The position numbers were made by a program, and so were the translations under genes. DNA of 46,363 nucleotides from a virus: positions 1 through 46,363 of IMG/VR virus record IMGVR_UViG_3300038457_000122, one strand, 5' to 3'. Below, one piece after another: positions 10,801 to 43,331 of the stretch (the first letter of the stretch is position 1; each line of letters starts with the position of its first letter). The notes under the pieces were generated by a model that searched no databases, was not told the origin of the DNA, and saw only the letters and a list, made by a program, of their open reading frames with translations.

Positions 10801-13518
10801 GAATTGCCGCAAGATTGGCCCGTGCGGTCCCGTCTCGGCGCCCGGCTGCAGCTTTGCCTTGTTCGCCGCGATGTTGACCTTGTTTCTCTGTACGGCCTGC
10901 TGAAGTGAGTTGGGGGCCTTGACCGAGGCCTGAGCTACTGGGGCTTCGTCTGGACGCACCTGGCCCGCTCGGCCGGTGTCATCGACGCCAGCTCCGCCGG
11001 CGTCCAGCGAATTCGGTTCTCCGGATCCAGCTTCGCCGCTCCGCTCTTGACGCAGGCCTTCAGTTCGCTCACCAGCTCCTCGCGGAACTCCGGTGAGTCG
11101 ATCGATCTGGCCTTTGAGGTGGTCTCTGACTTCGCGGTAGGCTGACTGTTTGACGTCATTGGCGTTGCCTCCCTGGTGGAGTTGCTCGGCGGCGCGATCC
11201 AGGATGCCGTCGATAGGTCCGGCTGAAGTGCTCAGCTTATCGTACAGCGAAATGCCCTGGTTTGCGGCCTCTGTTTTCTCCGCATTGGCGCCCGCCTGGA
11301 TGACGTTCCCCGCTTCTCCCAGCCGGTCCGCCGCGGCTTGCCCCGACACCACGCCGAAGAGCTTCTTCTCCGCCTTGAGCTGTCCGCGCACGTAATCCGA
11401 GACGATGGCCTTTTCCGGCAGCAGGGAGCGCGTCATCTCACCCACGTCGAACATGCTGCCCTGCGCCGCTTCTCCCGGCTTCTCGGTTACTGTCGGGGCA
11501 CGCTGGTTCATGCGGATCAGCTCGCCCACCTGGTCGTTGGTGAGCCGCTGGCCCGCGGCCTCGCGCTGCCGCATGAGGGTGTAGATGGCCGTCTGGTCGG
11601 CCTGATTGGGGACGCCGGCGCCGAGCACGGCCGCGCGCTCCACCGGTAAAAGCCCATGCACCACGTCGTGGAAGATGGGAGGCGAGAGGTTTGCCAGGGC
11701 CATGCCCTGATTGGCGACCTGCTTGCGCATCGAGATCTTCCCCTCGGCCGCAACCGTCTCGGGAGTCATGCCGGTATCGCGGAAGAACTTGGCCGCGTCG
11801 ATGGCTGTTCCATTCCCCTCGGCGATATTGATCATGGCGCCCTTGGCGCGCGCTTCCGGCGCGGTGGCGGCATCCAGGTACCGCACCTGCATCTCCGGCA
11901 CGGGCTGCGGTTTGTTCGACTGATCGGCGATGGTATTCAGTCTCTGCGCCAGCTCCGTGCGGTGATGGCCGTTGACCGCGTAAGTCTGTCCGTTTGCCGG
12001 GTCCAGCCACACGTGTACCGTCCCGGCGATGTCCGGGTCCCAGGTCGTCACATCCTTGAACTGGTCGCCGACGCCGTGCTGCCCGATGTCCTGCTGCTTG
12101 AACTGGAACCGCGTGGGGTCGAGCTGGATATCGCCCGTGGGAATGCGGCCCTCGAATCCCGGACCGCGCGGCATCGGCGCCTCGGCCGCGGGAGCCTGGC
12201 TGGCGGGGGACTCCGCGGGCACCGGAGGCGCAGGAACGGCCGTCCAGCCCTTTCCCAGGTCTAAGGGCGGCTCAGTCGGGGTGACAGTCTGTGGCGTCTC
12301 GGCCGCAGGCTGCCGAGGGGCGGGGGCCGGCGGGGGCGCGGTGAAGTTCGAGACGTCCCACCCAGGGGCTGGCTCTTGCGCTACGGGCGTCTCTGAGGCC
12401 GCTGGCGGTGGGGGGGGTGCGGATACGGCAGAGGGCTCCGCGGATTTCTCCGGCAGCGGGTAGTTCGCCTTGCGCTCGGCGATGGCGGCTTGCTCCTGCC
12501 GCGCGATTTCCTCCTCGACGGGATTGGAGGTGAAGTTCGAGAGGTCCCAGCCAGGGGCTGGCGTTGGCGCTACGGGAGGCGCTGGGGCCGCTTGCGGCGC
12601 GGCGGCCGGTGGAGGGCCTTCCTCCGCGGGCGCTGGCAGGCCGCGGCTGAAACGGGCTTGGGAGGCTGCGTTCCTCTCCGCGCTCGCGCGGGTCGCCTCA
12701 TCGTTGTACAGCCGCTCCTGGAGGGCTTTCTTGGTTGCCGCCAAGGTTTCTATGTCGCTGAGCTGCCCGTGCGCGTGCATGACCGCGAGGCTTCCCAGAA
12801 ACGCCGATGTGCCGGCGGCGCCGAGCTGACCGAGCGCCCCCCAGTAATCGCCCTGCTTGGCCGAGCCGTAGGCCGCGGGGACCTCCTTCACAATCTGTTT
12901 GGCGGATTGCCCGGCGAACCAGATCGACAGAGCGGCGTCGGCCGCTTTCCCCGCCGCCGCCACTTGCGCGGTCCCGCTGGTAGCTGCCGCGCCGAGGCCT
13001 CCGCTGGCCAGGGCGATTGCGCCGCCGGCCGGCGAGAGCATGCTGGCCGCCGGTTCGATGAGCGCCTTTTGTTCGATCTGGAAGGGGCCGACCATGATCT
13101 GGTTCAGTTCCTTGACGGCATCTTTGACGGACTGCGGGGGAGAGAGCAGGAAATCCTGGATCGACTGGGACTTCGGTGCGGTGTCGACCGTCCGCCCGTT
13201 GGGCCCGGCGTATGTCTGAGTGCCCGGCTGTTTGACGAAGGTCGTAACGATGGGAGGGCCGGCCGGCTTCGGTTCCTCGGCCAGAATCTGGGGCACGGGT
13301 TGCCGCGGTCCCACGAAGGGCGTAGCCGGCGCCGGGGGAGTCGCGCCGGCAGGCGCGGCGGGAGCCGGCGTTGCCGATATCGGCGGAGTCGCGCCCACAG
13401 GCCCGAACTTACTCAGGTCCCAACCGCCCTGCGCGGGCGCGGCGGGGGCCGGTGTCGCCGGCGCCGGCGGCGGTCCGCCCACGGGCGCGAATTTACTGAG
13501 GTCCCAGCCGTCTGCCAT
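7831..13518 (-). CDS. Giant multidomain (polyvalent-type) virion protein, 1895 aa
   Basis: The N-terminal about 440 residues are mostly Pro/Ala-rich and contain the recurring motif GWDLSKF/GWDLSNF/GWDVSNF (about residues 4, 32, 322, 386). A hydrophobic Gly/Ala segment at about 155-200 could cross membranes. Residues about 455-560 look ParB/sulfiredoxin-like (GDIQLDP, then VNGHHRTELAQR). Residues about 900-1020 match the PBECR nuclease-like family of phage polyvalent proteins (LGDVDLIWGKPGTPEKDYED, AVRLDYDGKAKKWLLTVYE). A second hydrophobic stretch is near 1681-1702. Such giant proteins are often packaged and injected with the DNA. Position among ejection-like genes agrees. Enzyme activity is not proven. 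Confidence 0.75.
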   Translation of the reverse strand: MADGWDLSKFAPVGGPPPAPATPAPAAPAQGGWDLSKFGPVGATPPISATPAPAAPAGATPPAPATPFVGPRQPVPQILAEEPKPAGPPIVTTFVKQPGTQTYAGPNGRTVDTAPKSQSIQDFLLSPPQSVKDAVKELNQIMVGPFQIEQKALIEPAASMLSPAGGAIALASGGLGAAATSGTAQVAAAGKAADAALSIWFAGQSAKQIVKEVPAAYGSAKQGDYWGALGQLGAAGTSAFLGSLAVMHAHGQLSDIETLAATKKALQERLYNDEATRASAERNAASQARFSRGLPAPAEEGPPPAAAPQAAPAPPVAPTPAPGWDLSNFTSNPVEEEIARQEQAAIAERKANYPLPEKSAEPSAVSAPPPPPAASETPVAQEPAPGWDVSNFTAPPPAPAPRQPAAETPQTVTPTEPPLDLGKGWTAVPAPPVPAESPASQAPAAEAPMPRGPGFEGRIPTGDIQLDPTRFQFKQQDIGQHGVGDQFKDVTTWDPDIAGTVHVWLDPANGQTYAVNGHHRTELAQRLNTIADQSNKPQPVPEMQVRYLDAATAPEARAKGAMINIAEGNGTAIDAAKFFRDTGMTPETVAAEGKISMRKQVANQGMALANLSPPIFHDVVHGLLPVERAAVLGAGVPNQADQTAIYTLMRQREAAGQRLTNDQVGELIRMNQRAPTVTEKPGEAAQGSMFDVGEMTRSLLPEKAIVSDYVRGQLKAEKKLFGVVSGQAAADRLGEAGNVIQAGANAEKTEAANQGISLYDKLSTSAGPIDGILDRAAEQLHQGGNANDVKQSAYREVRDHLKGQIDRLTGVPRGAGERTEGLRQERSGEAGSGEPNSLDAGGAGVDDTGRAGQVRPDEAPVAQASVKAPNSLQQAVQRNKVNIAANKAKLQPGAETGPHGPILRQFHQDARGAIAWLLGHQTGDAVGALHHPDPRLGDVDLIWGKPGTPEKDYEDGEGIAKLVAKGRTSILDTLPEFFSKMQVDENRSGPNRVRLFDDTHKAAVRLDYDGKAKKWLLTVYEDKPPTSGKRTSAPGDLSAGEALSPVGGQVPPSTGKSSDVSGNPVSRAGETASSPNSGAPATSMGGEPRAVNSTEGQSSLVTPAEELRSKAQEASNEAKLTHDRLTAQLKSGGQVKPSNLKPAENRGLFEEEKPETGDLFGNERGSFSRKSTKTPEQVKAEADKRYGQNMREWFTARRDLWSARVRQEMDLLRKELPDHVDREGLYLMRDMRHRPGEMEQYLAGTHDVFGEVSRLGTARDNIEKLRPAIERAMNPTPAMLKADSVLTRIAEVSLNEGKKLGFIDHHVSPDEYVTHLLEGDEAQKPSLVDRMGRAMGGKIGRNFPFNQERAFPTILEAIAHNQRPKTLDALKAFDAYGDKFATARATHLLVNQLVDSDTGVWGAKGDRGIPKDWVEIAPHAHPFRNLVAYTPRSEGTEEPEPVGAYQTLFVPRKIEMGLRPITDPDYSNKIAGFSNLRVFQAYTKAAQLGLSFFHATTENYMALANMGARGWLKALKADKDTPEFHEREADFIAHGGTTAIQGKSYEAAEGLTLSSLPTAEEAWRSTAGVRHVYAAAKGITDLTFGKLQRQFKVVDYSLHKAAWLAEHKDAMPSERTAAMRSIAKEVNAVYGGLHTENLGINKMTANVARALMLAPDWTFSNLFNLKYAGEASPGGKMARMFWLRAVVGGMAATQLMSLLLSGKLSKRPTQVHLGTDADGKEIYQNLFFKGAPGDLANTIGNIKDYGAVEGLFRTMSNKASPVIRTGVEAVKNQTFLGREIAPKGMSPLASTVRGAYEAGKSLAPIPWSFGNVEEMLFGPEAYKYKKPLEVMTTLFAGTPPVHVAPPKPEKDARSIWEQIKTGKVAAPKEPASKPARLPNPVEQMKRQQRRELHPQ

Positions 13519-15556: not shown

Positions 15557-16052
15557 TGGATTTCCCCTCGAATGCTGCTTTGCTCAGCCCGTAGAGCCAC
15601 ACGTCTTTGGGCTTCCCTGCGGACAGCGTGTGGCCGACCAGCGTGCCCTCGCGCTTCCCGCCGATATTGCAGATCAGCGATCCCAGCGCCAGGTTGCCGC
15701 AGAGCACGCGAAACTCCAGCTTGCCCAGGCCCGGCTCCTCGAACATTCCCGCTACCGCGATCCGGCACGCCTTCGCCGCCAGGCCGCGCCCCTGAAAGTC
15801 GGGCTTCATCACCACGTCCGCCGTCCCCAGCCACTTAGACAGCCGCTCGAAGATGACCAGGCCGCCCAGCTCGCCGTCTGCCGACACCGCCCAGGTCTTC
15901 TGCCGGTCCCACTGCGCTTTCATGCGCCCGAGGAAGCTCTCCAGGTCCTGCGGGCTGAAGTCGTCGGCCACCTTCTCGCGGAAGGGCGCGATCCAGTGCC
16001 ACACCCGCGGCAGCGCTGCGAACGGAAACGGACTGCTTACTTCGATGGTCAT
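15540..16052 (-). CDS. GNAT-family N-acetyltransferase
   Basis: 170 residues. VVMKPDFQGRGLAAKA (about 87-102) is the acetyl-CoA-binding R/Q-x-x-G-x-G/A loop, followed by a helix and the strand-turn typical of RimJ/RimL-like GNATs (RVLCGNLALGSLICNIGGKREG). It should transfer an acetyl group from acetyl-CoA to an amine on a protein or small molecule. It starts inside the stop of the large tail gene (ATGA) and is embedded in the virion operon, so its target may be a phage or host protein. The open frame runs far upstream in this frame, but only because of the GC-rich neighbour. Confidence 0.85.
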   Translation of the reverse strand: MTIEVSSPFPFAALPRVWHWIAPFREKVADDFSPQDLESFLGRMKAQWDRQKTWAVSADGELGGLVIFERLSKWLGTADVVMKPDFQGRGLAAKACRIAVAGMFEEPGLGKLEFRVLCGNLALGSLICNIGGKREGTLVGHTLSAGKPKDVWLYGLSKAAFEGKSNVVSK

Positions 16053-18859
16053 CTCACCGCCGCCCAGGACATCTCCTCCGCCGTGGGCAGCGGCAGAGGC
16101 CAGCCCAACAAACACAGGTGATCGTAGGCCCATGTCTTCACCATCGGCAGTTGCAGCCTCTGAACCGCCGCGTACTCGCGCTGCCACGCCCACCCGGCCG
16201 AATACCAGCCCATGAGATAGCGGCAGTGGGCCTTGTCCCAGGTCAACGTCGTGAAGGGGTAGGCCGCGCAGGCCTTCGCCCGGTCGATGTTGCGGTCCAC
16301 CCCGTTGTACTGGAAGCCTTCGACCAGAAACGTGTCGAAGCCCGAACCCGTTCGCGTGGCCCACGCCGTTGGCAGATTCACGTAGCGCATCAGTTGCGCC
16401 GCCGAGGGATCGTTCACGTCCAATGGCCAGAGCAGCTCGAATAGCGCCGTGGGGCACGCCGTCAACACCGCCGCGCGCACCGCGTCCACGTAGCTCTCCA
16501 GGCGCGCGCGCAGAAAGTTGGCGTCGGCGTAGGCGTCCGCCGCCGGGCTGTCGTTCGGCGTCAGGAACGTGTGCAGCGTGCCGCCGAACGCTGTTTCCGT
16601 GGCGGCATCGTAGAATGCCATCGACGGCGGCGAGCCGCCCGCCTGGTACCACCACAGCGCCTCGCCGAATTGCAGCCGCACGGCGAGCCCCGCCGCCGCC
16701 ATCAGGGCCGCCGCTTGAGAGTAAGCGCTCGCCATGTATGCTTGTACCGCCGAACCGAAGGCGCATTGCGAACTGAGCAGGGGACCGAATCCCGTCGCCG
16801 TTACCGCCGGGCTGCCGTCGTGGAAGCGCTGCACCCATACCGCCGCGGGCGGATTGTCCGGCGGGTTCACCAGCTCCTGGCTGAACGAAACCACCGCGCC
16901 GATCCCCGCCGCCGCCAGCTCGCCGAAGTAGTCGGCGTGCCATGCCGCCACCGCGGCGTTGATCGGGGATGTCGCCGTTTCGTCCACTCCCCAATACCAG
17001 GCGGCGGAAATCGGCGGCGGCGTCCCGTTGCTGGTCGCAACCCCCGCCGTGAAGCCCGAGTCGTGGGTATCCACGGCGATCGCCACGTAGTAACTCGCGC
17101 TCGACGCCCGTCCGTGCAGCGTGAGCACGGCCCCGCTCGTCTCCGCCCAGAACACCGCCGATCCCTGGTTCACCAGTTGCGCCAGCGCCAGGGCCACCGT
17201 CTCGGCCGTGTCCCCGTCCAGATTGACGTGGTCGATTTCCGCGCTGCCCATGAGCAAGCTGGTGGTGTCGCCGAAGGCCGGTGTGCCGGCGAAAGTAACG
17301 GCCGTCGTCTGCGACCAGGTGGATGCCGGTTCCAGGGCCTTGCGGACGGGCCACCAGAAGACGCCCATGTAGTGGTCCACTTCCCCAACCAGGCCCAGCT
17401 TTTGGATGTTCCACAGCACCCGCTGCGGCGGCAGCTTGTAGGTGTTGTCGGTGTCATAGTCGGTGGCCACGCCCACGTCCGTGCGCGTCTCCGGCGCGTC
17501 GGGCACGTCCGACAACACCGCGCACTCCAGGAAGTCGAAGTAGAAATACCAGCCGCCGCTGGCGGAGTTCTTCGTGCCGGGGAAAGTGACCGCTACGCTA
17601 TGTTGCCCCGCCGCCACGTCGGCGATCTTCACCCGGACCTGCATACCGCTGCCGTAGCAGTCCACCGCTAACGGCGTTCCCCCGTCGATCGACACGTTGA
17701 CGATCCCGCAGTTCGTGTCGAGCCGCGTTCCGAGGTAGATGCTATGCGCCGCCCCGCAATGCGTTTCGACGGTCAAGCTGCGCGTCTCGCTGGAACTGTA
17801 CGCCGAGCGGATGGCCCATCCCCGGCTCCACCACGCCGATACCGACGCCGCCACCACTGTGGGCGTGTCCCAATACCCCGCCTGTGTCACCCAGGGCGAA
17901 TTCTCCTCGATGCGCACCGACCCCGGCCCGGCGGCTTTGAGCGCGCGGCATCCCGTCCCGTCCGTCACCGTCCAACCGCTGAAGGTCGCAGACCAGTCCA
18001 CGGCCGTGAGCCAGCCGGCCAGGGGCAAGGGCGGCGCGAACGTCAACCACATCTTGTGGATCGCAGTGGCCGGAACCACCGTTACGCCGTCCTTGTCCTT
18101 GACCGTTCCCGAGGTGAAGTCGAGGCTTACCGTCCACACGTTCGGCGAAGTCCCGCCTGTAAACTGCGCCGAAGAAGGGGACCAGGTCTCGCTGCCCGTC
18201 CCTCCCCACACCGTCGCGTACGCTCCCACGCGGTTGCCGTTCGCCCCGGGGGTCCTCCATGTCAGCGTAACGTCCGCGCCAGCCGCCGCCGCGCTCACGG
18301 TCGGGCTGGCCGACGTGATTGCCGCCGCCAGCCCGGCCGCCGCGGTCGCCGGCGTATCGGCGCCCAGCACGGTGTAGTAATAGTGCTCCGTACCCCAGGC
18401 AAGCTGGATGTTGTCGCCCGGCGTGAGCGGGCCCCCGAGCGTGAAATCCGCCGTCGCCGGGGCATACGATCCGCCGGCCGGCGTGGCGTGAGCCAGCAGA
18501 GGCGCCTGGTATTGGGTGGCGTACTGGGTGCTCCCGTCGCCCACCAGAACGTTCAGGTACGGCCAGTCCACCGAGGGGTAATCGGCGCTGTCGAGCTGCT
18601 CGCAAGCGATCAGGTCGATATCGAACGACAGCGCCAGTCCGCTGAAATCGCCATCCGGCAGGTAGCGCATGCGCGGATGCTCGAACTGATTATTCACGTC
18701 CCACAGTTGCAGCACCGCGAAATCGTCCTGCCCGCCCCACACCCCCGAGACGGTGAAGCCGGTATCGCTGGCGTCGTGCATGGCCGCCGTAGCGCCGTAC
18801 CCGTCGAAGCCCTGCAACTGCATCGTGCGGTGCGGTTCGAGTTTGTAGATGGCTTCCAC
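16049..18859 (-). CDS. Large putative tail/receptor-binding protein, 936 aa
   Basis: 936 residues with a GTG start (18859), just past the stop of the upstream gene. Aromatic-rich beta-sheet regions fill the first 600 residues. From about 600 a different region has VRLQFGEALWWYQAGG and FELLWPLDVNDPSAAQL, with repeated Trp/Glu/Asp in an alternating alpha/beta layout that recalls a TIM-barrel glycosidase. That is a structural impression only; catalytic residues cannot be assigned. Its place after nozzle-type and small surface genes suggests a tail protein for host binding or polysaccharide attack. Confidence 0.6.
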   Translation of the reverse strand: MEAIYKLEPHRTMQLQGFDGYGATAAMHDASDTGFTVSGVWGGQDDFAVLQLWDVNNQFEHPRMRYLPDGDFSGLALSFDIDLIACEQLDSADYPSVDWPYLNVLVGDGSTQYATQYQAPLLAHATPAGGSYAPATADFTLGGPLTPGDNIQLAWGTEHYYYTVLGADTPATAAAGLAAAITSASPTVSAAAAGADVTLTWRTPGANGNRVGAYATVWGGTGSETWSPSSAQFTGGTSPNVWTVSLDFTSGTVKDKDGVTVVPATAIHKMWLTFAPPLPLAGWLTAVDWSATFSGWTVTDGTGCRALKAAGPGSVRIEENSPWVTQAGYWDTPTVVAASVSAWWSRGWAIRSAYSSSETRSLTVETHCGAAHSIYLGTRLDTNCGIVNVSIDGGTPLAVDCYGSGMQVRVKIADVAAGQHSVAVTFPGTKNSASGGWYFYFDFLECAVLSDVPDAPETRTDVGVATDYDTDNTYKLPPQRVLWNIQKLGLVGEVDHYMGVFWWPVRKALEPASTWSQTTAVTFAGTPAFGDTTSLLMGSAEIDHVNLDGDTAETVALALAQLVNQGSAVFWAETSGAVLTLHGRASSASYYVAIAVDTHDSGFTAGVATSNGTPPPISAAWYWGVDETATSPINAAVAAWHADYFGELAAAGIGAVVSFSQELVNPPDNPPAAVWVQRFHDGSPAVTATGFGPLLSSQCAFGSAVQAYMASAYSQAAALMAAAGLAVRLQFGEALWWYQAGGSPPSMAFYDAATETAFGGTLHTFLTPNDSPAADAYADANFLRARLESYVDAVRAAVLTACPTALFELLWPLDVNDPSAAQLMRYVNLPTAWATRTGSGFDTFLVEGFQYNGVDRNIDRAKACAAYPFTTLTWDKAHCRYLMGWYSAGWAWQREYAAVQRLQLPMVKTWAYDHLCLLGWPLPLPTAEEMSWAAVR

Positions 18860-19968: not shown

Positions 19969-20052
19969 TCAATCTTTCGGGATGGTCTTTCCCTGGAGCC
20001 TCTGCCATGCCGCCAAGGCCACCAGGCGGATCGCCGCCAGCAGGGCTCCCAC
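19969..20052 (-). CDS. Possible 27-residue hydrophobic peptide, GTG start
   Basis: GTG overlaps the stop of the gene at 20052 (TAGTG). It would encode about 27 residues with a hydrophobic core (GALLAAIRLVALAAW) and a charged tail (QRLQGKTIPKD), like a single-pass peptide. It fills the only gap between two late genes and ends 3 bases before the next start. Too short to be sure. Confidence 0.35.
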   Translation of the reverse strand: MGALLAAIRLVALAAWQRLQGKTIPKD

Positions 20053-20402
20053 TACGCCGCCACTCCCGGCGCGATCGGCGCCGTCTGCCAGATCTCGCTC
20101 AGCGAGCCGTCGATGTAGACGCCCAGCGGCCGCAGGTACACAATGCCCGAATACAGCTCAAATTGGGTGCTCGCGCCCGGCGTGATCTTGGGATAAAATT
20201 CCGTTCCCCTGATGCCGTCGAGGGGAACCGTGAGGGTGACCCTCATCCCGCCGCCTCCGGAGCTCGCCAGGCTGATGCCCGCTCCCAGGCGCGCCGCGAG
20301 CGCTCCGCCCGGCATGTCGGTATAGAGCTGCAGGCTGGCCGCGCCGTTCGAGGCGTACACCAGCGTCAATTCTTTGAACTCGTTTACTTTTCTGAAGGCC
20401 AT
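20052..20402 (-). CDS. Small structural protein, paralogous to its neighbours
   Basis: 116 residues. It consists almost wholly of a domain also seen at the C-terminus of the 20415 protein and the N-terminus of the 19321 protein: LQLYTDMPGG, then FELYSGIVYLRPLGVYIDGS and a final W-x-x-x-P. GAGGAGTG precedes the ATG. A homologue of a tail-surface domain is likely; no named family. Confidence 0.65.
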   Translation of the reverse strand: MAFRKVNEFKELTLVYASNGAASLQLYTDMPGGALAARLGAGISLASSGGGGMRVTLTVPLDGIRGTEFYPKITPGASTQFELYSGIVYLRPLGVYIDGSLSEIWQTAPIAPGVAA

Positions 20403-22924: not shown

Positions 22925-23545
22925 TCACAGCGTGCCGTAATACTGCTGACAGATCTGCTCGTACATCTGCACCCTCGCGCGGCAGTGCTTCGCCAGTTCC
23001 GGCTGCTCGCTCTCGCCCTCTTCGCCGTAAGCCTTCGCCAGCACCGAGAAAGCCAGGTACCCCGCCAGCGGCGCGGGCGCCTGCACCAGCGTGTTGTCCT
23101 GGGCCACGTCCACGTCGGGCGGATACACCGCGCAGATCGTGGGCAGCGCCGCCGCGGCCGTGGGAACCGGGACCAGCCCCACCGTCCCCAGCATGATGTC
23201 GTCTTCGTACCAATGGTCCGGCGTTCCCGGAGTGCTCTGAAACGATTCGTCGCGCGCTTCCAGATCGATCACCGCCGCCGGCCGCAGGGGAGATATACCG
23301 AGGGAGATATGCAGCGTGGCAACCTGGCGGGAAGGTAAGGAGTAGATGGCCGTGCCGCCGGCGGTGGTAATCGAAGTGTCGCGCTCCACGAACGTCATGG
23401 AGACGCGCGCAAGGCGTTTGCAGGCCTCATCCGTCCACTGGATCAGATCGTCCTCCGTCCAGAATGTCAAGTCCGCGAAAGAGTCCGCGTGTAGGTCCGG
23501 GAGCAGCGCCGTGAGCAGGGCTTGCGTGTCGATCTCGCCGGCCAT
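22925..23545 (-). CDS. Putative head-tail adaptor/gatekeeper protein
   Basis: 206 residues. Begins with a helical region (DDLIQWTDEACKRLARVSM) and continues with beta strands (AIYSLPSRQVATLHISL) and a C-terminal helix (YEQICQQYYGTL). This layout is common in adaptor proteins of podoviruses between portal and nozzle. No certain family match. It starts one base beyond the stop of the next gene in the operon. Confidence 0.55.
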   Translation of the reverse strand: MAGEIDTQALLTALLPDLHADSFADLTFWTEDDLIQWTDEACKRLARVSMTFVERDTSITTAGGTAIYSLPSRQVATLHISLGISPLRPAAVIDLEARDESFQSTPGTPDHWYEDDIMLGTVGLVPVPTAAAALPTICAVYPPDVDVAQDNTLVQAPAPLAGYLAFSVLAKAYGEEGESEQPELAKHCRARVQMYEQICQQYYGTL

Positions 23546-24280
23546 TTACCTTCCCCCCTTGGGCGCGAGCATCGCCGCGAGCTGCGAGCGGTCGAAGCTG
23601 GCCAGCTCGAACGGCTGCACGTCGTAGTGCGCCGCCAGGCTGCGCGCCCGCGTATAGTTCCCGAGGCGCGTCATGCTGTCGAGGTACGCGTTCAGGCAGT
23701 TCATCCCGCGGGCGAGCTGCTGCGCGCCTTCCTTCAGCCTCACGCGGTACACGCCGTACTCCACCAGGTCCGGATGATAGGCGTCCGGAAGGATCGGCGT
23801 ATCCGTGGCTGCCAGCGCGGCCGGCGAATAGGCGTAAGTCGCCTGCGCCGTTTGGGAGGACTGCGGAGTCACCGCCCAGAGATTCGACCCCAGCAGGCAA
23901 TAGCGCGCCGCGGGGCCGGCCGTGGCCTGCCACTGGGAGTTCCAGCCGTCGAGCTCGTCGATGGTGGACGGCCGCAGTCTGATGCCGCCCACGGCGATGC
24001 GCAAGGGCGCGATCAGGTCCGGCAAAGCCGGGCGCGGCAGGTAGAACGCCCCATTGGCGTCGAGCGAATGCGCCGTTCCCAGCGAGAAGGCTACTGTCTT
24101 TTCGAAACACAGCGTGAGCAGGCTGGCGAGCTGCTGCCCTTCGTCGATCGCCGCGAGTACTTCATCGGCGACTACCACGCCGTTGACGGTCGGACCCGCG
24201 CCCACCACCACCGATACCGGCGCGGCGGGGTCGTCGTCGATCCGCGTGATGATTCTCCCGGCGATGTCGGAGACGGTCAT
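23546..24280 (-). CDS. Putative adaptor-like structural protein
   Basis: 244 residues from MTVSDIAGRIITRI; helical (DEVLAAIDEGQQLASLLTLC), then a beta-rich middle with RPSTIDELDGWNSQW and a helical tail. Similar layout to the genes at 22925 and 24847, suggesting a series of adaptor or neck proteins. The open frame extends to 24436, but that part is antisense to the ORF at 24367 and the GC hairpins at 24312-24350, so I start at 24280. The ribosome site is weak. Confidence 0.55.
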   Translation of the reverse strand: MTVSDIAGRIITRIDDDPAAPVSVVVGAGPTVNGVVVADEVLAAIDEGQQLASLLTLCFEKTVAFSLGTAHSLDANGAFYLPRPALPDLIAPLRIAVGGIRLRPSTIDELDGWNSQWQATAGPAARYCLLGSNLWAVTPQSSQTAQATYAYSPAALAATDTPILPDAYHPDLVEYGVYRVRLKEGAQQLARGMNCLNAYLDSMTRLGNYTRARSLAAHYDVQPFELASFDRSQLAAMLAPKGGR

Positions 24281-24366
24281 GCGGAGACCGCCGGGAGTAG
24301 ACTGAATGGGACGGCGGCCGCTGAAACGGCCCCGCCCCGGTGCAGCCGGGAAAGGAGATTTCCCAG

Positions 24367-24708
24367 ATGCAAAATCAGGGTACCAAAGCCGTCGAAGACA
24401 GAGTGTTGCAGGAAAGCCACGCGCACGGCGATACACGCCACGTCACTGGCAACGAGTGTGAGAGGCTTATCCGTAACGCAATCAGTCTTTACCCGGATCT
24501 TCCCGCCGCGGATCTTATCGAGAAACTGATTGCCCTTGCAGATCCGGAATTCCTTGCTACGCTCGACCGCCAGCTCCGGACGCAGTACCTCACCCATATG
24601 ATGAAAACGATTCGCGCTCGCGACCAGCGCGAGGAAGGCGCTTCCGCGTGGTCCACACGGCGCGTGAGGGCTTCGATGCCATGGGATTCCCTCGAAGATG
24701 GCGGGTAG
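24367..24708 (+). CDS. Opposite-strand moron, hypothetical protein
   Basis: 113 residues on the plus strand within leftward structural genes. AAAGGAG sits ten bases ahead of the ATG at 24367. The core (ECERLIRNAISLYPDLPAAD, then a Leu-rich helix and DRQLRTQYLTHMM) is helical; no family known. The last ten residues (MPWDSLEDGG) come from the 167-bp inverted repeat, read antisense to the 2463 gene, so the ORF looks truncated or fused at 24676/24677. Its composition is more balanced than random frames here. It may be a lysogeny-expressed cargo gene. Confidence 0.6.
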   Translation: MQNQGTKAVEDRVLQESHAHGDTRHVTGNECERLIRNAISLYPDLPAADLIEKLIALADPEFLATLDRQLRTQYLTHMMKTIRARDQREEGASAWSTRRVRASMPWDSLEDGG

Positions 24709-24846: not shown

Positions 24847-25719
24847 TCACCGGCAGCGCCTCATCCTGTGCCCCGTGTAGTACGGATCCATCTGCATGGC
24901 CGCCGGCGGCATGCCCTGCGCCTCGGAGCTCCGCATGTTGGCCAGGCCCACCTTGGCCATTACGCCGGCGAGCTGCGCGCCGTTATAGTCCTTCAGGTGC
25001 GCCTTGATCCGCGAGACCACGCCCTCGACCAGCGCCGCGGACTGCATCCACACTTGCAGAATCGTGCTCGTGGCCGCGCCGGTAAGCGCTCCGGGGTCGG
25101 ACACGTAGGTGAACGGGATCCCGTAGACCTTGTCGGGGACGGGGCACAGTTGCACCTGAATGCGCGGAGGCGTCGAGCCGTCGTCCATGTAGCTCGCCCA
25201 GATGCCCGGCAGTCCCGGACAGCCCGCGCCGGGAAAGGACTGGTTCAACTGGCTGCGCGCCATGCGCACCAGCGGCCCTTCGGTGAAGTCCGAGAAGGCC
25301 GTGTCCTCCAGCATCCGGCAATCCGCCGGCATGGCGTAGACGTGCTGAAAAATGGTGTACCCTGCGCCTGGCGCGAGCCCGAGCGATCCCTCGTAGCCGC
25401 GGTCCAGGGTTCCCGCCGCCGCGCCCACGTAAGTAAAGGCGTAGATATCGTCCTCGCCCACCACGCGAAACGCCATGCCCGTCATGGCCGGAGTGAACGT
25501 CCCTCCGCTGAGCGCGACGGCGTTCGATCCCGCCGTGAGTGTCACCGTGCCGGTGGAATACGGCGCCAGCGTCTGGAGCACCGCGGTGACGTTCTGCCGC
25601 GACCAGGGCAGCTCTCCCAGGATCTCGGCATAGCGGTCGTCGATCCATCCCTCGATGAGGTCCAGATCGACGCCCGGGAACTGCTTGGTCAAGCGGAATT
25701 TCAGTTGGCCGTAGGTCAT
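24847..25719 (-). CDS. Putative adaptor/neck structural protein
   Basis: 290 residues starting MTYGQLKFRLTKQFPGVDLD. The opening helical segment with ERWIDDRYAEIL-like pattern and WSRQ, a beta middle, and a C-terminal helix (ALVEGVVSRIKAHLKDYNGA) are typical of phage head-tail adaptor-like proteins, in line with its neighbours. No precise family. Starts on its own ATG three bases before the stop of the upstream gene. Confidence 0.58.
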   Translation of the reverse strand: MTYGQLKFRLTKQFPGVDLDLIEGWIDDRYAEILGELPWSRQNVTAVLQTLAPYSTGTVTLTAGSNAVALSGGTFTPAMTGMAFRVVGEDDIYAFTYVGAAAGTLDRGYEGSLGLAPGAGYTIFQHVYAMPADCRMLEDTAFSDFTEGPLVRMARSQLNQSFPGAGCPGLPGIWASYMDDGSTPPRIQVQLCPVPDKVYGIPFTYVSDPGALTGAATSTILQVWMQSAALVEGVVSRIKAHLKDYNGAQLAGVMAKVGLANMRSSEAQGMPPAAMQMDPYYTGHRMRRCR

Positions 25720-25722
25720 GAA

Positions 25723-27417
25723 TCAGTACCCAAAACAAGTGAATGCTAGAGTGTCCGAACTTCCATAGGTGGTCAACGAGGGGAACGTGGCGCTGTTTAC
25801 CGTGCTGGACGAGCTGCCGTAGGCCCCCTGCGTCGCGGCCATTTGTCTATCCACCAAGGTGCAGGTATACCCATTGGGCGCTGTCGGCAGCCCCGTCAAA
25901 ACGGGGGTACAACTCCCGCTGCCCGCCCCCGCTACAAACGTTCCCGCAAAAGATCCCCCAACTTGCGCTCCGATGGTCCCGCACCCTGTCACGACTGGCT
26001 GACTTCCGCTGGCAATCACAGTTGCTGTGATTACTTCGGCTGGTCCGATCCCCGTCGAGGAGAACACCATCTGCCAGCAGTTTCCGCTCGCCGCCGTCGA
26101 GATCCACAGCGTCCCGCCGCCGGTTACCGTGTCCATGTATCCGGCCAGGCTCGACGACGTGGGCGCCGAACACCCGCTGCCCTGAGTAGGAGGGCCGCTA
26201 CCCGTCGTCATAGTGAGGATGCCGCCTCCGGAGCTCGCCGTGCCTCCCTCTTCCGCCACTACCGAGACCCAAACGAGCGCCCCCGAGCAGCTCGACGTGC
26301 ACGGGGTCTCGACGATCGCGGTCGAATGGCCGGGCGCGACCGTCGAACGCGCGCCGGTGTCGTGGGCGTAGCCGCCGGTGGCGGTAGAGAGCACCACGAC
26401 GTCTCCAATCGTCGCAGTCCCCGAATCGAGGGTCGCCTGGACAGGCCCAAAGCGATCGACGTTCACCGGGTCGCCCGCGATGGCGGTGCTTTCCGCCACG
26501 CCGTACCAGGATGTGTCGCCCGTGGTGCATTCGATCACGGCGCCGGCGTTGGCCGGGTCCAGTTTCACGAACGTGTTGGCCGTAACTCCGCCGGTTCCAG
26601 CGGTGATTCCAGTCTCCACCAGATGTTGCGTGGCGTCGCCGCCCGAGGAGCAATCCGCGCCCGTGCCGCTCAGCACCCCGCTCGCGCTCACGTGCAGGCA
26701 TTGCGTCGTACCCGTGAAGGGAGTTGTGATCGTGCCGCTGAACGTCGGCGATGCGGCCGGCGCGTAGGCGGTGTTGTCGAAGACCCACGCCGAGCCGTGA
26801 TAGCCCAGGTTGCCCGTTGTCAGCGAAGGCAGCGCCGCGCCGCGCAGTCCCGTGATCGTCAGCGACGGGCCGAGGCTCGTGGCGCCGGATGCCGATCCCG
26901 ACGCGTCCCCTCCCGCACTCCACGTAATGGACTGGTTGCCGGTGAGGTAGCCCGGCCCATTGCTGAAGCTCGAAAGGCTCGTGGGAAACGTCCCCAGGCT
27001 CAGATCGCCGCGCAGATACTGCGACGTACTCCCAGTGCTCAAGCTCGCCTGCTTGCCGGCCAACGCCGCCGCCAGGTCCGTCTGCGCCGAGAGCGTCCCG
27101 CCGATCGATCCCCACGTTCCCCCGCCCCCGCCGCCGCCCGGCAGTTGCACCCACCACAGCGAGGCGGAAGCCGGATTGTTGCCCGTGTTCGAGCCCGCCA
27201 GGCTCACGTAGCTGAAGCCGGCGTAAGTTACCAGGTCCTGCGCGTTGTAGCCGAGAGAAGAGATCCACGCGCCCCGGTAGCCGACCTTGTTTGCCGACAG
27301 CCAGGCGAAGTTGGCGTTGATCTTCGTCCGGGCGGTGGGCATCGCCTCGTTGTTGACGGTCTGGATCTGCGCACGGAGCGAGAACGCCAGCAGCGCCAGG
27401 AGAAGAGCTCGTCTCAT
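25723..27417 (-). CDS. Fibre-like protein with a Sec signal peptide
   Basis: 564 residues. It opens with a clear signal peptide: RR, hydrophobic ALLLALLAFSL, and a likely cut after RAQ or RA. Residues about 46-92 (YNAQDLVTYAGFSYVSLAG, then LWWVQLPG) resemble a CBM5/12-like carbohydrate-binding module. The middle carries fibre-type sequence (GDASGSASGATSLGPSLTI). The C-terminal 200 residues contain many Cys (for example CGTIG, SCTPVL, CTLVD, FTCFGY) that may form disulphides outside the cytoplasm. A receptor-binding or cell-surface role is inferred. Coupled by ATGA to the 56-residue gene before it. Confidence 0.68.
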   Translation of the reverse strand: MRRALLLALLAFSLRAQIQTVNNEAMPTARTKINANFAWLSANKVGYRGAWISSLGYNAQDLVTYAGFSYVSLAGSNTGNNPASASLWWVQLPGGGGGGGTWGSIGGTLSAQTDLAAALAGKQASLSTGSTSQYLRGDLSLGTFPTSLSSFSNGPGYLTGNQSITWSAGGDASGSASGATSLGPSLTITGLRGAALPSLTTGNLGYHGSAWVFDNTAYAPAASPTFSGTITTPFTGTTQCLHVSASGVLSGTGADCSSGGDATQHLVETGITAGTGGVTANTFVKLDPANAGAVIECTTGDTSWYGVAESTAIAGDPVNVDRFGPVQATLDSGTATIGDVVVLSTATGGYAHDTGARSTVAPGHSTAIVETPCTSSCSGALVWVSVVAEEGGTASSGGGILTMTTGSGPPTQGSGCSAPTSSSLAGYMDTVTGGGTLWISTAASGNCWQMVFSSTGIGPAEVITATVIASGSQPVVTGCGTIGAQVGGSFAGTFVAGAGSGSCTPVLTGLPTAPNGYTCTLVDRQMAATQGAYGSSSSTVNSATFPSLTTYGSSDTLAFTCFGY

Positions 27418-27584
27418 GCCGGATCTCCCGTCTGGTCCCAGTTGCCGGCGATGTCGTCCCAGTTGCCCGCGATGTCGTCCCAGGGCAATCCCGTCGGCGG
27501 TGTGTCGAAGATCCGCGGCGCGCCGGCTCCGGAGGGGGCCTCGAAGATTCGCGGAGCTCCGCTTCCCGCTGGGCCGAAGATCAT
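27414..27584 (-). CDS. 56-residue repetitive protein
   Basis: Starts in the stop of the SGNH gene and stops in the start of the fibre gene (ATGA on both sides). Sequence shows GAPRIFEAPSGAGAPRIFDT, two copies of GAPRIF, and then three copies of a NWDDIAG-like heptad (PWDDIAG-NWDDIAG-NWDQTG). It is probably a real small protein or linker. Function unknown; perhaps it joins a trimeric surface protein. Confidence 0.6.
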   Translation of the reverse strand: MIFGPAGSGAPRIFEAPSGAGAPRIFDTPPTGLPWDDIAGNWDDIAGNWDQTGDPA

Positions 27585-29416
27585 TGCAAGATTCCCGTCA
27601 ACACCGGCAGCAGGTCCGCCGCGATGGCGTTCTCGCCCGTGGTGTTCGGATGCAGCCCGTCGCTGTTGTAGTACGTGGTGTTGGCCGCGCAGGCGTCACA
27701 GCCGATCGCCGGGTCCAAGTCGAGCCGTACAATCGCATCGTAGAAACTGGTGTCCGCTACGATCAGCGGATTCACCGTGTCCCGCCAGGCGTTGAAGCCG
27801 CTATAAGTCCGCGGCAGAACGGTGAGCACTACGATCTTCCAGCCGGCCGCCCGCATCGCGAGGCAGTAGGATTTGACGTTGGCCACGAAGCCGGAAGCCC
27901 CGCCGACGTCCCCCAGATCGTTCGCGCCGATCAGCACGGTCAATATGTTTCGCGTGGGAGACGGCTGCAGCAGCGCGTTATCCGCCGCCTCGCGCGACAC
28001 CATGGTCCCAATGTTCGATCCCGCCACCGCTGTGATGATCCCCTGCGGGTACGGGGTGATCGCCGCTTGCGCGGTGTAGCCGAACGGCGTCCCGTCCTGC
28101 CCCGCCGTGATCGAGTCTCCCTCGAACATCACCCAGTTTCGCCATGCCGGAATCGTCACGCCCAGCGATGCCATGCGGGCCTTGAGGGCCGCTGAATTGC
28201 TCGCCACCGCGGCGGCCGAATGCGCCACGTCGTACAGCGAGGCATAGCCGATCTTGCCGTTGTACTGGTAGCCGTTTTGATTTCCCAGCCCGAGGCCGGT
28301 CAATGTGATCGGGTTGGCCGCTCCGGTATTGCTCGCCACCGGGACTCCGTCCAGGTAGGCGGTGAGCGTCGTTCCGTCGTAAGTCGCCGCCAGAACGTGC
28401 GGGTTTCCATCGGCCACCCGGATCCCGTTCGGTGGCAGCATGACCCCGCCGAAATTGGCGCGGTAACTGGGGCCGTTAGAGTAGCTAGGCCATAGGCCCA
28501 GTTGCTGCGCGTCGTCTCCCAAGACAGACTGAGCGCTAGACGACTCGGCCGTCTGCTGCACCACCGCATACATCGACATGCTGGCCAAAGTGATCGGGCT
28601 CCAGTCTCCCAAGCCGTAGGCCCGCTGCGCGCCGGCAAACACCAGCCACGGCGCCGACCAGGTGGGCACCGTCGAATCGTTCGCCCACTTGTATCTACCA
28701 AGCAAAACGTTGAAGAAATGTGAGTCATAGGCCGTGGGCGATGAGCCATACTCCATTTCCAGGCCGTCGTAGGAAATGTCCACGGCGTCCCCGCCCGCGT
28801 CCTGATAAACCTGCACATTGGTTGATCCCGACGCGGCGGTGAACGTGTACGCGACCCGGCTCCAGGTAGTGCCCACCGCGATGTTCCCTCCGATTGCCCC
28901 ACCGTAGACTGTGCCCATCCGGATTGTCTGGGGCGAGCCCGTGTTTGAAATCGCGTCCATCGAGATCGTGTAGGTTTGGCCGCTGGTGAACAGGCCGCTG
29001 CCAGGCGACATATAGCTGAAGCTCGCCGCGCCGCTCAACTGAACTCGCGATGCGATCATGAGGCCGTTGCGGTTCATGGCGTAGTTGGCCGTGTTGGTGC
29101 AGGTCCCGGAACAACCGGTGAAGGGCGGGCTGAACACCGGGCTCCAGAGATTGTTGGTGGCGATGTGAGGATACACCGAATTGAAAGCCGTGCGCCCCAG
29201 TCCTTCGTCCAGACGGTATTCGGCCACCAGGCCGCCCGTGAGCGGCGCGACCGCGGCGGGGGCCGCACTGGTTCCCCACGCCGTGCCCGACCCATCTACC
29301 CACGCCGTACAGTTGGACGTCCTGGCAGCCGAGCAGAACACCGGGTCCTTCCCGAACTGCGCCAGCGCCGGCAAAGCCAGCGCCAGCAGCAGCAGGGGGG
29401 TCTTAGTCGAGCGCAT
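27581..29416 (-). CDS. SGNH/GDSL hydrolase with signal peptide and LamG-like region
   Basis: 611 residues. A signal peptide (MRSTKTPLLLLALALPALAQ, cut likely after ALA) leads a concanavalin/LamG-like beta region (GLVAEYRLDEGLG, about 60-420). The hydrolase domain follows with block I GDSITAG (about 430), block III GAND (about 497) and block V DGLHP (about 586), giving Ser, Asn, Asp and His of the SGNH fold. Such enzymes remove acyl or acetyl groups from polysaccharides or lipids. In a fibre locus it suggests host-surface deacetylation; its signal peptide instead suggests export. Confidence 0.82.
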   Translation of the reverse strand: MRSTKTPLLLLALALPALAQFGKDPVFCSAARTSNCTAWVDGSGTAWGTSAAPAAVAPLTGGLVAEYRLDEGLGRTAFNSVYPHIATNNLWSPVFSPPFTGCSGTCTNTANYAMNRNGLMIASRVQLSGAASFSYMSPGSGLFTSGQTYTISMDAISNTGSPQTIRMGTVYGGAIGGNIAVGTTWSRVAYTFTAASGSTNVQVYQDAGGDAVDISYDGLEMEYGSSPTAYDSHFFNVLLGRYKWANDSTVPTWSAPWLVFAGAQRAYGLGDWSPITLASMSMYAVVQQTAESSSAQSVLGDDAQQLGLWPSYSNGPSYRANFGGVMLPPNGIRVADGNPHVLAATYDGTTLTAYLDGVPVASNTGAANPITLTGLGLGNQNGYQYNGKIGYASLYDVAHSAAAVASNSAALKARMASLGVTIPAWRNWVMFEGDSITAGQDGTPFGYTAQAAITPYPQGIITAVAGSNIGTMVSREAADNALLQPSPTRNILTVLIGANDLGDVGGASGFVANVKSYCLAMRAAGWKIVVLTVLPRTYSGFNAWRDTVNPLIVADTSFYDAIVRLDLDPAIGCDACAANTTYYNSDGLHPNTTGENAIAADLLPVLTGILQ

Positions 29417-29768
29417 AGTACTTCCTCGCGATCAAGGTCAGCACACAGGCCGTCCCCTGGTTGACGGGCGAAGCCGTGAGCCCGCTGCGCAGCTTGATCA
29501 TGTCCACGTCGCGGAAGCTCGACGGATCGACCGCGATCCGCCGCCCCGCCACCACGTCGGCGGAAGCCGCCGAGATCTCGTTGCCCAGCCAGTCGAAATG
29601 GTCGTGCCAGGTCGCTCCCCCGTCGTCGGAGGCCTGGAAGCTCAGCGCCGCCGTGCTCCAGGCGGCCGGTATGACGATGGCCGAGAGCGTCTTGTCGCCC
29701 AGGTTGACGGCGTTGGACAGCGCCGTCCCCGCCGCGATGGTGACTTGCTCCGTTGTCTTTGCGCGCAT
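29403..29768 (-). CDS. Small structural protein, beta-rich
   Basis: 121 residues. Pattern ALSFQASDDGGATWHDH (about 42-58) is common in small phage surface proteins with a jelly-roll-like fold. Ends IARKYYALD. Not named. It overlaps the signal-peptide gene downstream by 14 bases. Confidence 0.6.
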   Translation of the reverse strand: MRAKTTEQVTIAAGTALSNAVNLGDKTLSAIVIPAAWSTAALSFQASDDGGATWHDHFDWLGNEISAASADVVAGRRIAVDPSSFRDVDMIKLRSGLTASPVNQGTACVLTLIARKYYALD

Positions 29769-30578: not shown

Positions 30579-31514
30579 CTAAGCGCCCGGCGAGCCGTAC
30601 ACGCCGCGCCAGCCGTAGAAGCCATAGGTGGCGCGATAGCGCATGTAGACGTAACCGGTTTCGTTCTTCTCGACGTAGTCGTCCTTGGTGTAGGGCGCCT
30701 TGCGGTCGAGCCACATGGTCTCGGTTTCCGATGCCGGGGCCACCAGGAACCAGGCGTCCGGGTCCGTCAGGTAGGGCCAGGTCAGCGGCTCGATCGCGCC
30801 GCCGGTCTCGGTCCCGGTCTGGAAGGCGTTGATCGACACGCGGTTGGCGGTGTCCGAACGGGTTTGCGATTTCAGGATCTCGGTGACGTTCCAGCGATTG
30901 GCCGAAGCCGTCATCACGCGCGGCGTGGGCAACATCTGCAGGAAGCCTTCGTGCGTCTTGATGAGCTCCCAGTCTGTGAGAGCCAGTTCCAGGGAGCCGA
31001 CATCCAGATCGGCCGGAACAGCGATCATGTTGGGCTGCACGCCGCCGGCCTTGACCAGCGGGTGAGTGGCGGAGATCAGCGAGCAACCGTCCGAGCCGTA
31101 ATAAGCCCCGGTGGTATCGAACGCGTTGTTGTACACGCTCGCGCCCTGAATCTCGCGCAGTTGATAAATGGAGTTGGAGAGAGCCACGGCGCGCCGGCTG
31201 ATGATGCCGAACTTGTCGTCTTCGACCAGTTCCTGGGAAGCGGCGATCCCCATGCCGTACTTCGCCGGCTTGAAGTTCGTGTAGAAGCCCTGCACGAAGG
31301 TGTCCGTGGGGGTGTCTTCGGTTTCCGCGATGGCCGTGGGAAGTCCGACGCCGGCCATCATGGCGTATTGCTCGATGGATTTGGTGGTGGTGTCGCCGTT
31401 CAGGACCAGCTTGGACATGAACTTCTTGGCTTTGAAGTTCTGCCAGATCTTAGCGTTGAGCGCCGGCAACATCGTTTCGTAAAAGAAGTCGGAAAAACTG
31501 CCTCTGATTTGCAT
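30579..31514 (-). CDS. Major capsid protein
   Basis: 311 residues. Starts MQIRGSFSDFFYETMLPALN; contains the HK97-like features of an N-terminal helical arm, TKSIEQYAMMAGVGLPTAIAE, EYGMGIAAS-like spine helix and a P-domain strand region near GYVYMRYRATYGFYGW at the end. It is of a size common for Mu gpT-like or podovirus heads. It follows scaffold- and cement-like genes and has a terminator behind it, both typical. The exact subfamily is not certain. Confidence 0.8.
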   Translation of the reverse strand: MQIRGSFSDFFYETMLPALNAKIWQNFKAKKFMSKLVLNGDTTTKSIEQYAMMAGVGLPTAIAETEDTPTDTFVQGFYTNFKPAKYGMGIAASQELVEDDKFGIISRRAVALSNSIYQLREIQGASVYNNAFDTTGAYYGSDGCSLISATHPLVKAGGVQPNMIAVPADLDVGSLELALTDWELIKTHEGFLQMLPTPRVMTASANRWNVTEILKSQTRSDTANRVSINAFQTGTETGGAIEPLTWPYLTDPDAWFLVAPASETETMWLDRKAPYTKDDYVEKNETGYVYMRYRATYGFYGWRGVYGSPGA

Positions 31515-42596: not shown

Positions 42597-43331
42597 CTAC
42601 TTGCGGGACTTCAGTGGTTTGACTTGCGGGGCGACCCTCGCACGCCTTTGTTGCGCACCCCCTGGAGGGTGCTTTAGGGCCATCCTCAGCGTCGATTCCC
42701 CGACGCCGAGTTTACGCGCGATCGCGCGCCAACTCATCCCCTGTTTCCGCAGCTCCGCCGCCTTGCCGCGATCGAACACCTTGAACGGCCGCCCCAGCCT
42801 CACTCCCTTATTCCGGGCCGTCTCCAGCCCCGCCTTAGTCCTCTCGCTGATCCGCAGCCGCTCCTGCTTGGCCACCCACGCGAAAATCGGGAGGATCAGC
42901 TCCCCGGCCGGCCCCGAGGTTCGGAAGAACGGCTCAGTGTACGATTCCAAGAGCACCCCATAGTCCGCCAGGCGCCTGACGTGCAGCAACGTCTCTAAAG
43001 GCCCTTCGCGCGTCAGGCGGTCCAGCGCCCACACCAGCAGGACCTCGAACTTCCTCTTGCTGGCGTCGTCGAACATCCGCTGCATGGCCTCCCGCTCCGC
43101 GGTCTTGCCGCTGGCCCGGTCGGTGTACTCGATCGCTTCCCAGCCCTTCGCCGCCGCGTAGCGCCTCAGCTCGATCAGTTGGTTCTCGGGGTCCTGCCCC
43201 TGGTAGGCGTTGCAAGTGCAGCGCGGATGCGCGCAGCCCTTCTTTTTCTTGCTGTGCTCGTCGTGGAGGTGTCCGCAGCTCTCGCGGGTGCAGCGTTCCT
43301 TCGACACGCGGGCGTAGATGGCCGCCTTCAT
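42597..43331 (-). CDS. Serine recombinase (resolvase/invertase family)
   Basis: 244 residues. Catalytic Ser10 (IYARVSKE), LVWALDRLTRE (R105, D104) and the long E-helix region (QERLRISERTKAGLETARNKG) are clear; residues 190-218 form the C-terminal HTH (RKQGMSWRAIARKLGVGEST). An insertion at 11-41 carries C14, C19, H21, H23, H26, C33, H35, C38, C40, unlike typical resolvases. It cuts and rejoins DNA at short sites, perhaps resolving dimers, inverting a segment or integrating. The last gene of a leftward unit from 44692. Confidence 0.88.
   Translation of the reverse strand: MKAAIYARVSKERCTRESCGHLHDEHSKKKKGCAHPRCTCNAYQGQDPENQLIELRRYAAAKGWEAIEYTDRASGKTAEREAMQRMFDDASKRKFEVLLVWALDRLTREGPLETLLHVRRLADYGVLLESYTEPFFRTSGPAGELILPIFAWVAKQERLRISERTKAGLETARNKGVRLGRPFKVFDRGKAAELRKQGMSWRAIARKLGVGESTLRMALKHPPGGAQQRRARVAPQVKPLKSRK

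Follow-up and report, generated by a model that had tools for sequence, protein, structure and literature searches.

The window, i.e., the whole stretch of 46,363 nucleotides that was analysed, carries a podovirus-type morphogenesis operon, which comprises a terminase, a portal-like protein, a capsid protein (PF25209), three SU10-type adaptors (PF24175) and a sheath, the latter being a non-contractile sheath protein with a TIM barrel (PF23845, 16049-18859). Between the capsid gene and the adaptor gene ADA1, in the structural operon and near the head-tail connector genes, lie the two genes considered here, which encode a fibre-like protein (FIB) and a protein with an SGNH hydrolase domain (the SGNH protein). 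The coordinates that the earlier note gave for both open reading frames held; both are located on the minus strand, which that note did not state. The features of the locus are as follows:

30579..31514, minus strand: major capsid protein (Pfam PF25209), left border of the cassette region
29403..29768, minus strand: small conserved structural-operon protein, the end of which overlaps the start of the SGNH gene by 14 nt
27581..29416, minus strand: 611-aa SGNH protein with a Sec signal, a LamG-like domain and an SGNH/GDSL hydrolase domain
29360..29416, minus strand: predicted signal peptide of the SGNH protein, MRSTKTPLLLLALALPALA before Q (rule-based prediction with controls)
28202..28582, minus strand: LamG / concanavalin-like domain of the SGNH protein, residues 279-405 (Pfam PF13385)
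27635..28120, minus strand: SGNH/GDSL hydrolase domain of the SGNH protein, residues 433-594 (Pfam PF13472)
27414..27584, minus strand: 56-aa short-repeat protein (APRIF..., WDDIAGNWDDIAGNWDQ), the stop of which overlaps the FIB start (ATGA)
25723..27417, minus strand: FIB, a 564-aa fibre-like protein with a Sec signal and 11 Cys, with relatives in nine contigs
27370..27417, minus strand: predicted signal peptide of FIB, MRRALLLALLAFSLRA before Q (rule-based prediction with controls)
27268..27369, minus strand: mature N-terminal motif of FIB (QIQTVNNEAMPTARTKINANFAWLSANK...), conserved in proteins whose C-terminal parts are of different length and content
24847..25719, minus strand: ADA1, an SU10-type adaptor (Pfam PF24175), right border of the variable cassette

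The genes in this part of the structural operon are packed or overlapping. The 14-nt overlap with the SGNH gene was also found in the related contigs L063 and L067, the 56-aa ORF shares nucleotides with SGNH on one side and with FIB on the other, and 3 nt separate FIB from the start of ADA1. Because of this arrangement, FIB and the SGNH protein are probably expressed together with the virion proteins. Several other features of the window can be recorded. The three adaptors (22925-23545, 23546-24436 and 24847-25719, minus strand) are adjacent paralogues of one SU10-type family, and a 116-aa ORF (20052-20402, minus strand) resembles part of the neighbouring 778-aa protein (34%), as is also the case in L012/L013. 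A 1895-aa protein (7831-13518, minus strand) matched a PHROG 'portal' family at 1.2e-54 over 350 residues, a label that may be wrong, and additionally showed a weak match to the PBECR1 nuclease. A serine recombinase is encoded at 42597-43331 (minus strand), which fits a temperate life style.

The Sec signal peptides that the earlier note had seen at the N-termini of both proteins were confirmed using an explicit rule of our own for the n-, h- and c-regions, which was applied instead of SignalP. FIB begins with MRRALLLALLAFSLRA followed by QIQTVNNEAM and the SGNH protein with MRSTKTPLLLLALALPALA followed by QFGKDPVF; both have the positive n-region, the hydrophobic h-region and the AxA-type cleavage site of a Sec signal that is cut by signal peptidase I, and neither has a lipobox Cys at position +1, where the mature residue is Gln in both. 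Each ATG is preceded by a purine-rich, Shine-Dalgarno-like stretch (GGGAG for FIB and GAGGAAG for SGNH), and the ATG of SGNH lies about five codons from the preceding in-frame stop, the open frame being 616 aa compared to 611 aa for the protein; wrong start codons were ruled out on these grounds. When every position of 15 conserved structural proteins was taken as a start, the rule was passed by 0 of 6838. Sequences drawn at random from the composition of each protein passed in 0.5-0.6% of cases, and those made by shuffling its first 30 residues in 3-7%, a higher rate that is due to these residues already being hydrophobic. Chance signals were ruled out by these start-position and composition controls together with the contig counts that are given below. 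As judged from these N-termini, it is very likely that both proteins are exported through Sec.

As for the other descriptions of the two proteins in the earlier note, FIB, which it called Cys-rich, has 11 Cys in 564 aa, and the name SGNH hydrolase was right, with a Pfam Lipase_GDSL_2 match at 3.5e-13 (PF13472, above the cut-off) and with the GDS, GxND and DxxH blocks present in the translation as FEGDSIT, IGANDLG and DGLHPN. The term fibre-like is reasonable for FIB, although the profile match behind it is weak (PHROG tail protein, 2.3e-4). The SGNH protein has seven Cys, of which 28/36, 102/106 and 573/576 are close together, as well as an additional LamG domain (Pfam, 4.6e-9), over which a profile search matched a minor tail protein family (1.8e-5). 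Relatives of the full-length SGNH protein were not found in viral contigs using peptide patterns, nor was a match to FIB found among GenBank phages. The fibres are probably trimers, and the alignments available for these proteins are shallow.

Related contigs were gathered by capsid, portal and adaptor searches, and 26 distinct contigs were counted. In these, the interval from the capsid to the adaptor is a variable fibre cassette. Signals were predicted for 27 of the 88 cassette genes vs. one of the 185 conserved structural genes (Fisher p 5e-14), the former fraction being conservative since some of the 88 are wrong-frame ORFs and the lone conserved structural gene with a signal (in L017) looking false. 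At least one signal was present in 16 of the 26 contigs. Export is not obligatory, as the cassettes of L007, L016, L058 and L061 are complete without any signal. That signals are a general trait of the capsid family was ruled out by the distant capsid relatives, in which none of the 95 large ORFs had one. Three N-terminal families carry the signals, and across them the sequence diverges while the pattern of K/R, a hydrophobic stretch and AxA before Gln is kept. The FIB family, found in ten contigs, is marked by the motif Q[IV]QTIPNExMPxARxxINANFxxLxANK; the QFG family includes the SGNH protein of the window and proteins of L063, L067 and L071 at the same operon place; the spike family has the motif TARYPxAxATNxDL... 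Within the signal-bearing families, the mature N-termini can be aligned, but length and content differ among the C-terminal parts. This pattern, which is typical of fibres that dock by their N-termini, is found in the FIB and spike families and is weaker for the SGNH protein (24% over 226 aa to L067).

The spike family also includes a signal-less protein (L059, 7680-8222), the first Met of which is aligned just behind the cut site of four signal-bearing homologues, from which it follows that the signal, as read from the alignment, is a modular addition. Moreover, the mature signal-bearing proteins contain 1.73% Cys compared to 0.56% in the signal-less cassette proteins (p 7e-8), a difference that persisted when lengths were matched (1.63% vs. 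0.47%, p 5e-5) and that is expected for proteins folding outside the cytoplasm. As for their domains, a pectate-lyase-like one is present in L082 15463, which also matches PHROG tail-spike families and the tail spikes of Salmonella and E. coli phages, and L071 13558 matches a PHROG tail-spike family. LamG and SGNH domains behind a signal were found in L014 7699, in gp342 of the cultured phage Tunturi_5 and in the window protein; L014 7699 additionally has a weak carbohydrate-esterase-2 N-domain, below the cut-off.

In ten contigs (the window, L005, L008, L014, L015, L022, L059, L060, L062 and L064), an ORF with a repeat array lies directly upstream of the signal-bearing FIB. It consists of, or ends in, PxIFR repeats, and in nine of the ten also contains WDDIxGNWDD, the array of L022 having the PxIFR part only. 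Elsewhere among the loci examined, the WDD repeats gave only two scattered single matches, in large proteins of Tunturi_3 and Tunturi_4. In L061, a similar N-terminus is fused to a signal-less fibre. The repeat-array protein might conceivably serve in docking.

The host is probably acidobacterial, since one of the nearest relatives of the window, L082 (G001:C86), is a prophage with 76% capsid identity that sits, with flanking bacterial genes, in a chromosome contig of a soil member of the Terriglobia (Acidobacteriota). From their translations, we take these flanking genes to be glmM and fabF. L082 has two signal-bearing proteins, located between ADA1 and ADA2 and not between the capsid and ADA1. 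A search with alignment A4 against 396 genomes of the L082 phylum gave ten matches including L082 itself, most of them weak; one of them, L094, has a plausible signal further into the open frame. In two cultured phages of Tunturiibacter with different morphotypes, 10 of 12 consecutive fibre-module genes carry signals with the deposited start codons, i.e., all six of gp337-342 in Tunturi_5, and gp12, gp13, gp16 and gp17 in Tunturi_2, where gp14 and gp15 have hydrophobic N-termini and fail the rule. Tunturi_2 gp14 has a weak pectate-lyase-like domain. The Tunturi_5 genes gp339 and gp340 (L078, 28138-28921), which encode signal-bearing proteins of 120 and 135 aa inside the fibre module, are possible partners or chaperones. 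No signals were found by the rule in the fibre genes of Tunturi_3 and Tunturi_4, and signals as a general trait of acidobacterial phages were thereby ruled out. A freshwater phage (L002/L003), unrelated by the capsid search, has three consecutive signal-bearing fibre-type ORFs in L003; its fibre of 1254 aa is matched in part by signal-less proteins of a Limnohabitans phage and of an uncultured podovirus.

Taken together, the evidence available from sequence consists of the signals, which recur, are restricted to fibre modules and are placed in a modular way, as well as of the Cys enrichment and the operon context. The explanation that we rank first, which was absent from the options of the earlier note and to which we give, as a whole, slightly less than an even chance, is that exported and trimmed proteins dock on virions at lysis. 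FIB and the SGNH protein would serve an acidobacterial podovirus in receptor binding or surface modification; they would be synthesised late, along with the virion proteins, and exported via the host Sec pathway. Signal peptidase I would cleave them after AxA/RA and before Gln, and folding and disulfide formation would probably take place outside the cytoplasm. Lysis would bring the mature proteins together with the virions that had been assembled in the cytoplasm, onto which they would dock via their conserved N-terminal segments. More broadly, and still more tentatively, tailed phages of mainly acidobacterial hosts may, as a group, pass their fibres through Sec, oxidise them in the periplasm and attach them at lysis, perhaps via the repeat-array protein. 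We know of no mechanism that returns exported proteins to the virion. Tailed-phage particles are taught to be assembled wholly in the cytoplasm; if the proposal is true, a portion of the tail comes from a separate, oxidising compartment. The production and testing of receptor-binding proteins from soil phages would then have to change as well, and the evolution of cysteine-rich adhesins in phages might find an explanation.

The main rival, which we consider unlikely but well ahead of the others, is that the proteins are exported by Sec but stay free, whether in the periplasm, at the surface or in the surroundings, and are never parts of the virion. Free enzymes could, for example, liberate the progeny by SGNH de-esterification or lyase cleavage of exopolysaccharide, or mask receptors on dying cells, and the signal-bearing proteins with SGNH and LamG domains in the window, L014 and Tunturi_5 (gp342) would suit such roles, as would the pectate-lyase-like domains in L082 15463 and, weakly, Tunturi_2 gp14. 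Free action is conceivable for an SGNH esterase as well as for a pectate-lyase protein. The sheath protein of the podovirus (16049-18859) could itself bind the receptor, as gp65 of N4 reportedly does. However, docking is favoured over free enzymes because conserved N-termini are combined with diverse C-terminal parts, because one spike family exists both with and without a signal, and because most large fibres of Tunturi_2 and Tunturi_5 are signal-bearing; with entire fibre modules carrying signals, few obvious cytoplasmic candidates for receptor binding are left in these phages.

Three further readings are each very improbable. The hydrophobic N-terminus might be a structural element, such as a membrane-contacting or trimerising helix that is kept in the virion, and its place beside the presumed docking segment would fit this; the n/h/c architecture with AxA before Gln, the signal-less homologue that begins at the cut site and the cysteine enrichment speak for an export signal instead. 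Slightly less probable still is superinfection exclusion, one of the options of the earlier note, in which exported proteins would mask or change the surface of infected cells or lysogens. Export itself agrees with it, and lysogeny is possible given the serine recombinase of the window and the prophage state of L082. Nevertheless, this option is disfavoured since the genes overlap within the late structural operon, with translational coupling in part, and since whole fibre modules bear signals; the set is also large, multi-gene and very diverse, and proteins for such exclusion are usually expressed early or in lysogeny. Equally improbable is another option of that note, capture from the host, in a passive form in which genes for host secreted proteins recombined into the fibre locus with signals useless to the phage: secreted enzymes commonly have SGNH and LamG domains and cleavage before Gln is common in secreted bacterial proteins, but the signals are kept across highly divergent sequences ahead of phage-type N-terminal motifs, in 16 of the 26 related contigs and three N-terminal families, and recur in unrelated cultured acidobacterial phages.

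In the open-access literature, searched by titles and the starts of abstracts, we found no paper on Sec signals on tailed-phage tail fibres or on exported fibres, and any novelty is provisional. The full text of the Tunturi paper (PMC11924767) mentions neither signal peptides nor mass spectrometry. The proteins described here resemble the tail fibres and spikes of tailed phages, such as tail spike protein 2 of Salmonella kutterviruses, in their operon place and in having a conserved N-terminus and a variable C-terminus, and L082 15463 shares its pectate-lyase-like fold with tail spikes. They differ in the signal peptide, which was absent from all those annotated structural proteins, spikes and fibres included, that were checked in the Salmonella phage SenALZ1, crAss001 and the Myxococcus phage Mx8; the single proteomics-identified structural protein of Cellulophaga phi14:2 that was considered also lacks one. 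The SGNH domain in a presumed phage surface protein is reminiscent of gp63.1 of phage G7C, an SGNH O-acetyl esterase tail spike; spikes of this type are not known to have a signal peptide, and a sequence match to such spikes was not found. In filamentous phages, virion proteins pass Sec with cleaved signals and assembly takes place in the membrane; the Sec-signal virion proteins are the likeness, whereas the window phage is tailed and its particles are assembled in the cytoplasm. The fibre modules of Tunturi_2 and Tunturi_5 share with the window the consecutive fibre genes with Sec signals and, in gp342, a signal-bearing LamG and SGNH protein, although the two phages, a larger podovirus and a jumbo myovirus, are distinct from that of the window, and among FIB, SGNH, Tunturi_2 gp12/gp13 and Tunturi_5 gp337, which were searched between the window and these modules, the only match was that of SGNH to gp342 (27% over 18%). 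As cultured phage-host pairs, Tunturi_2 and Tunturi_5 make the idea of export and docking directly testable.
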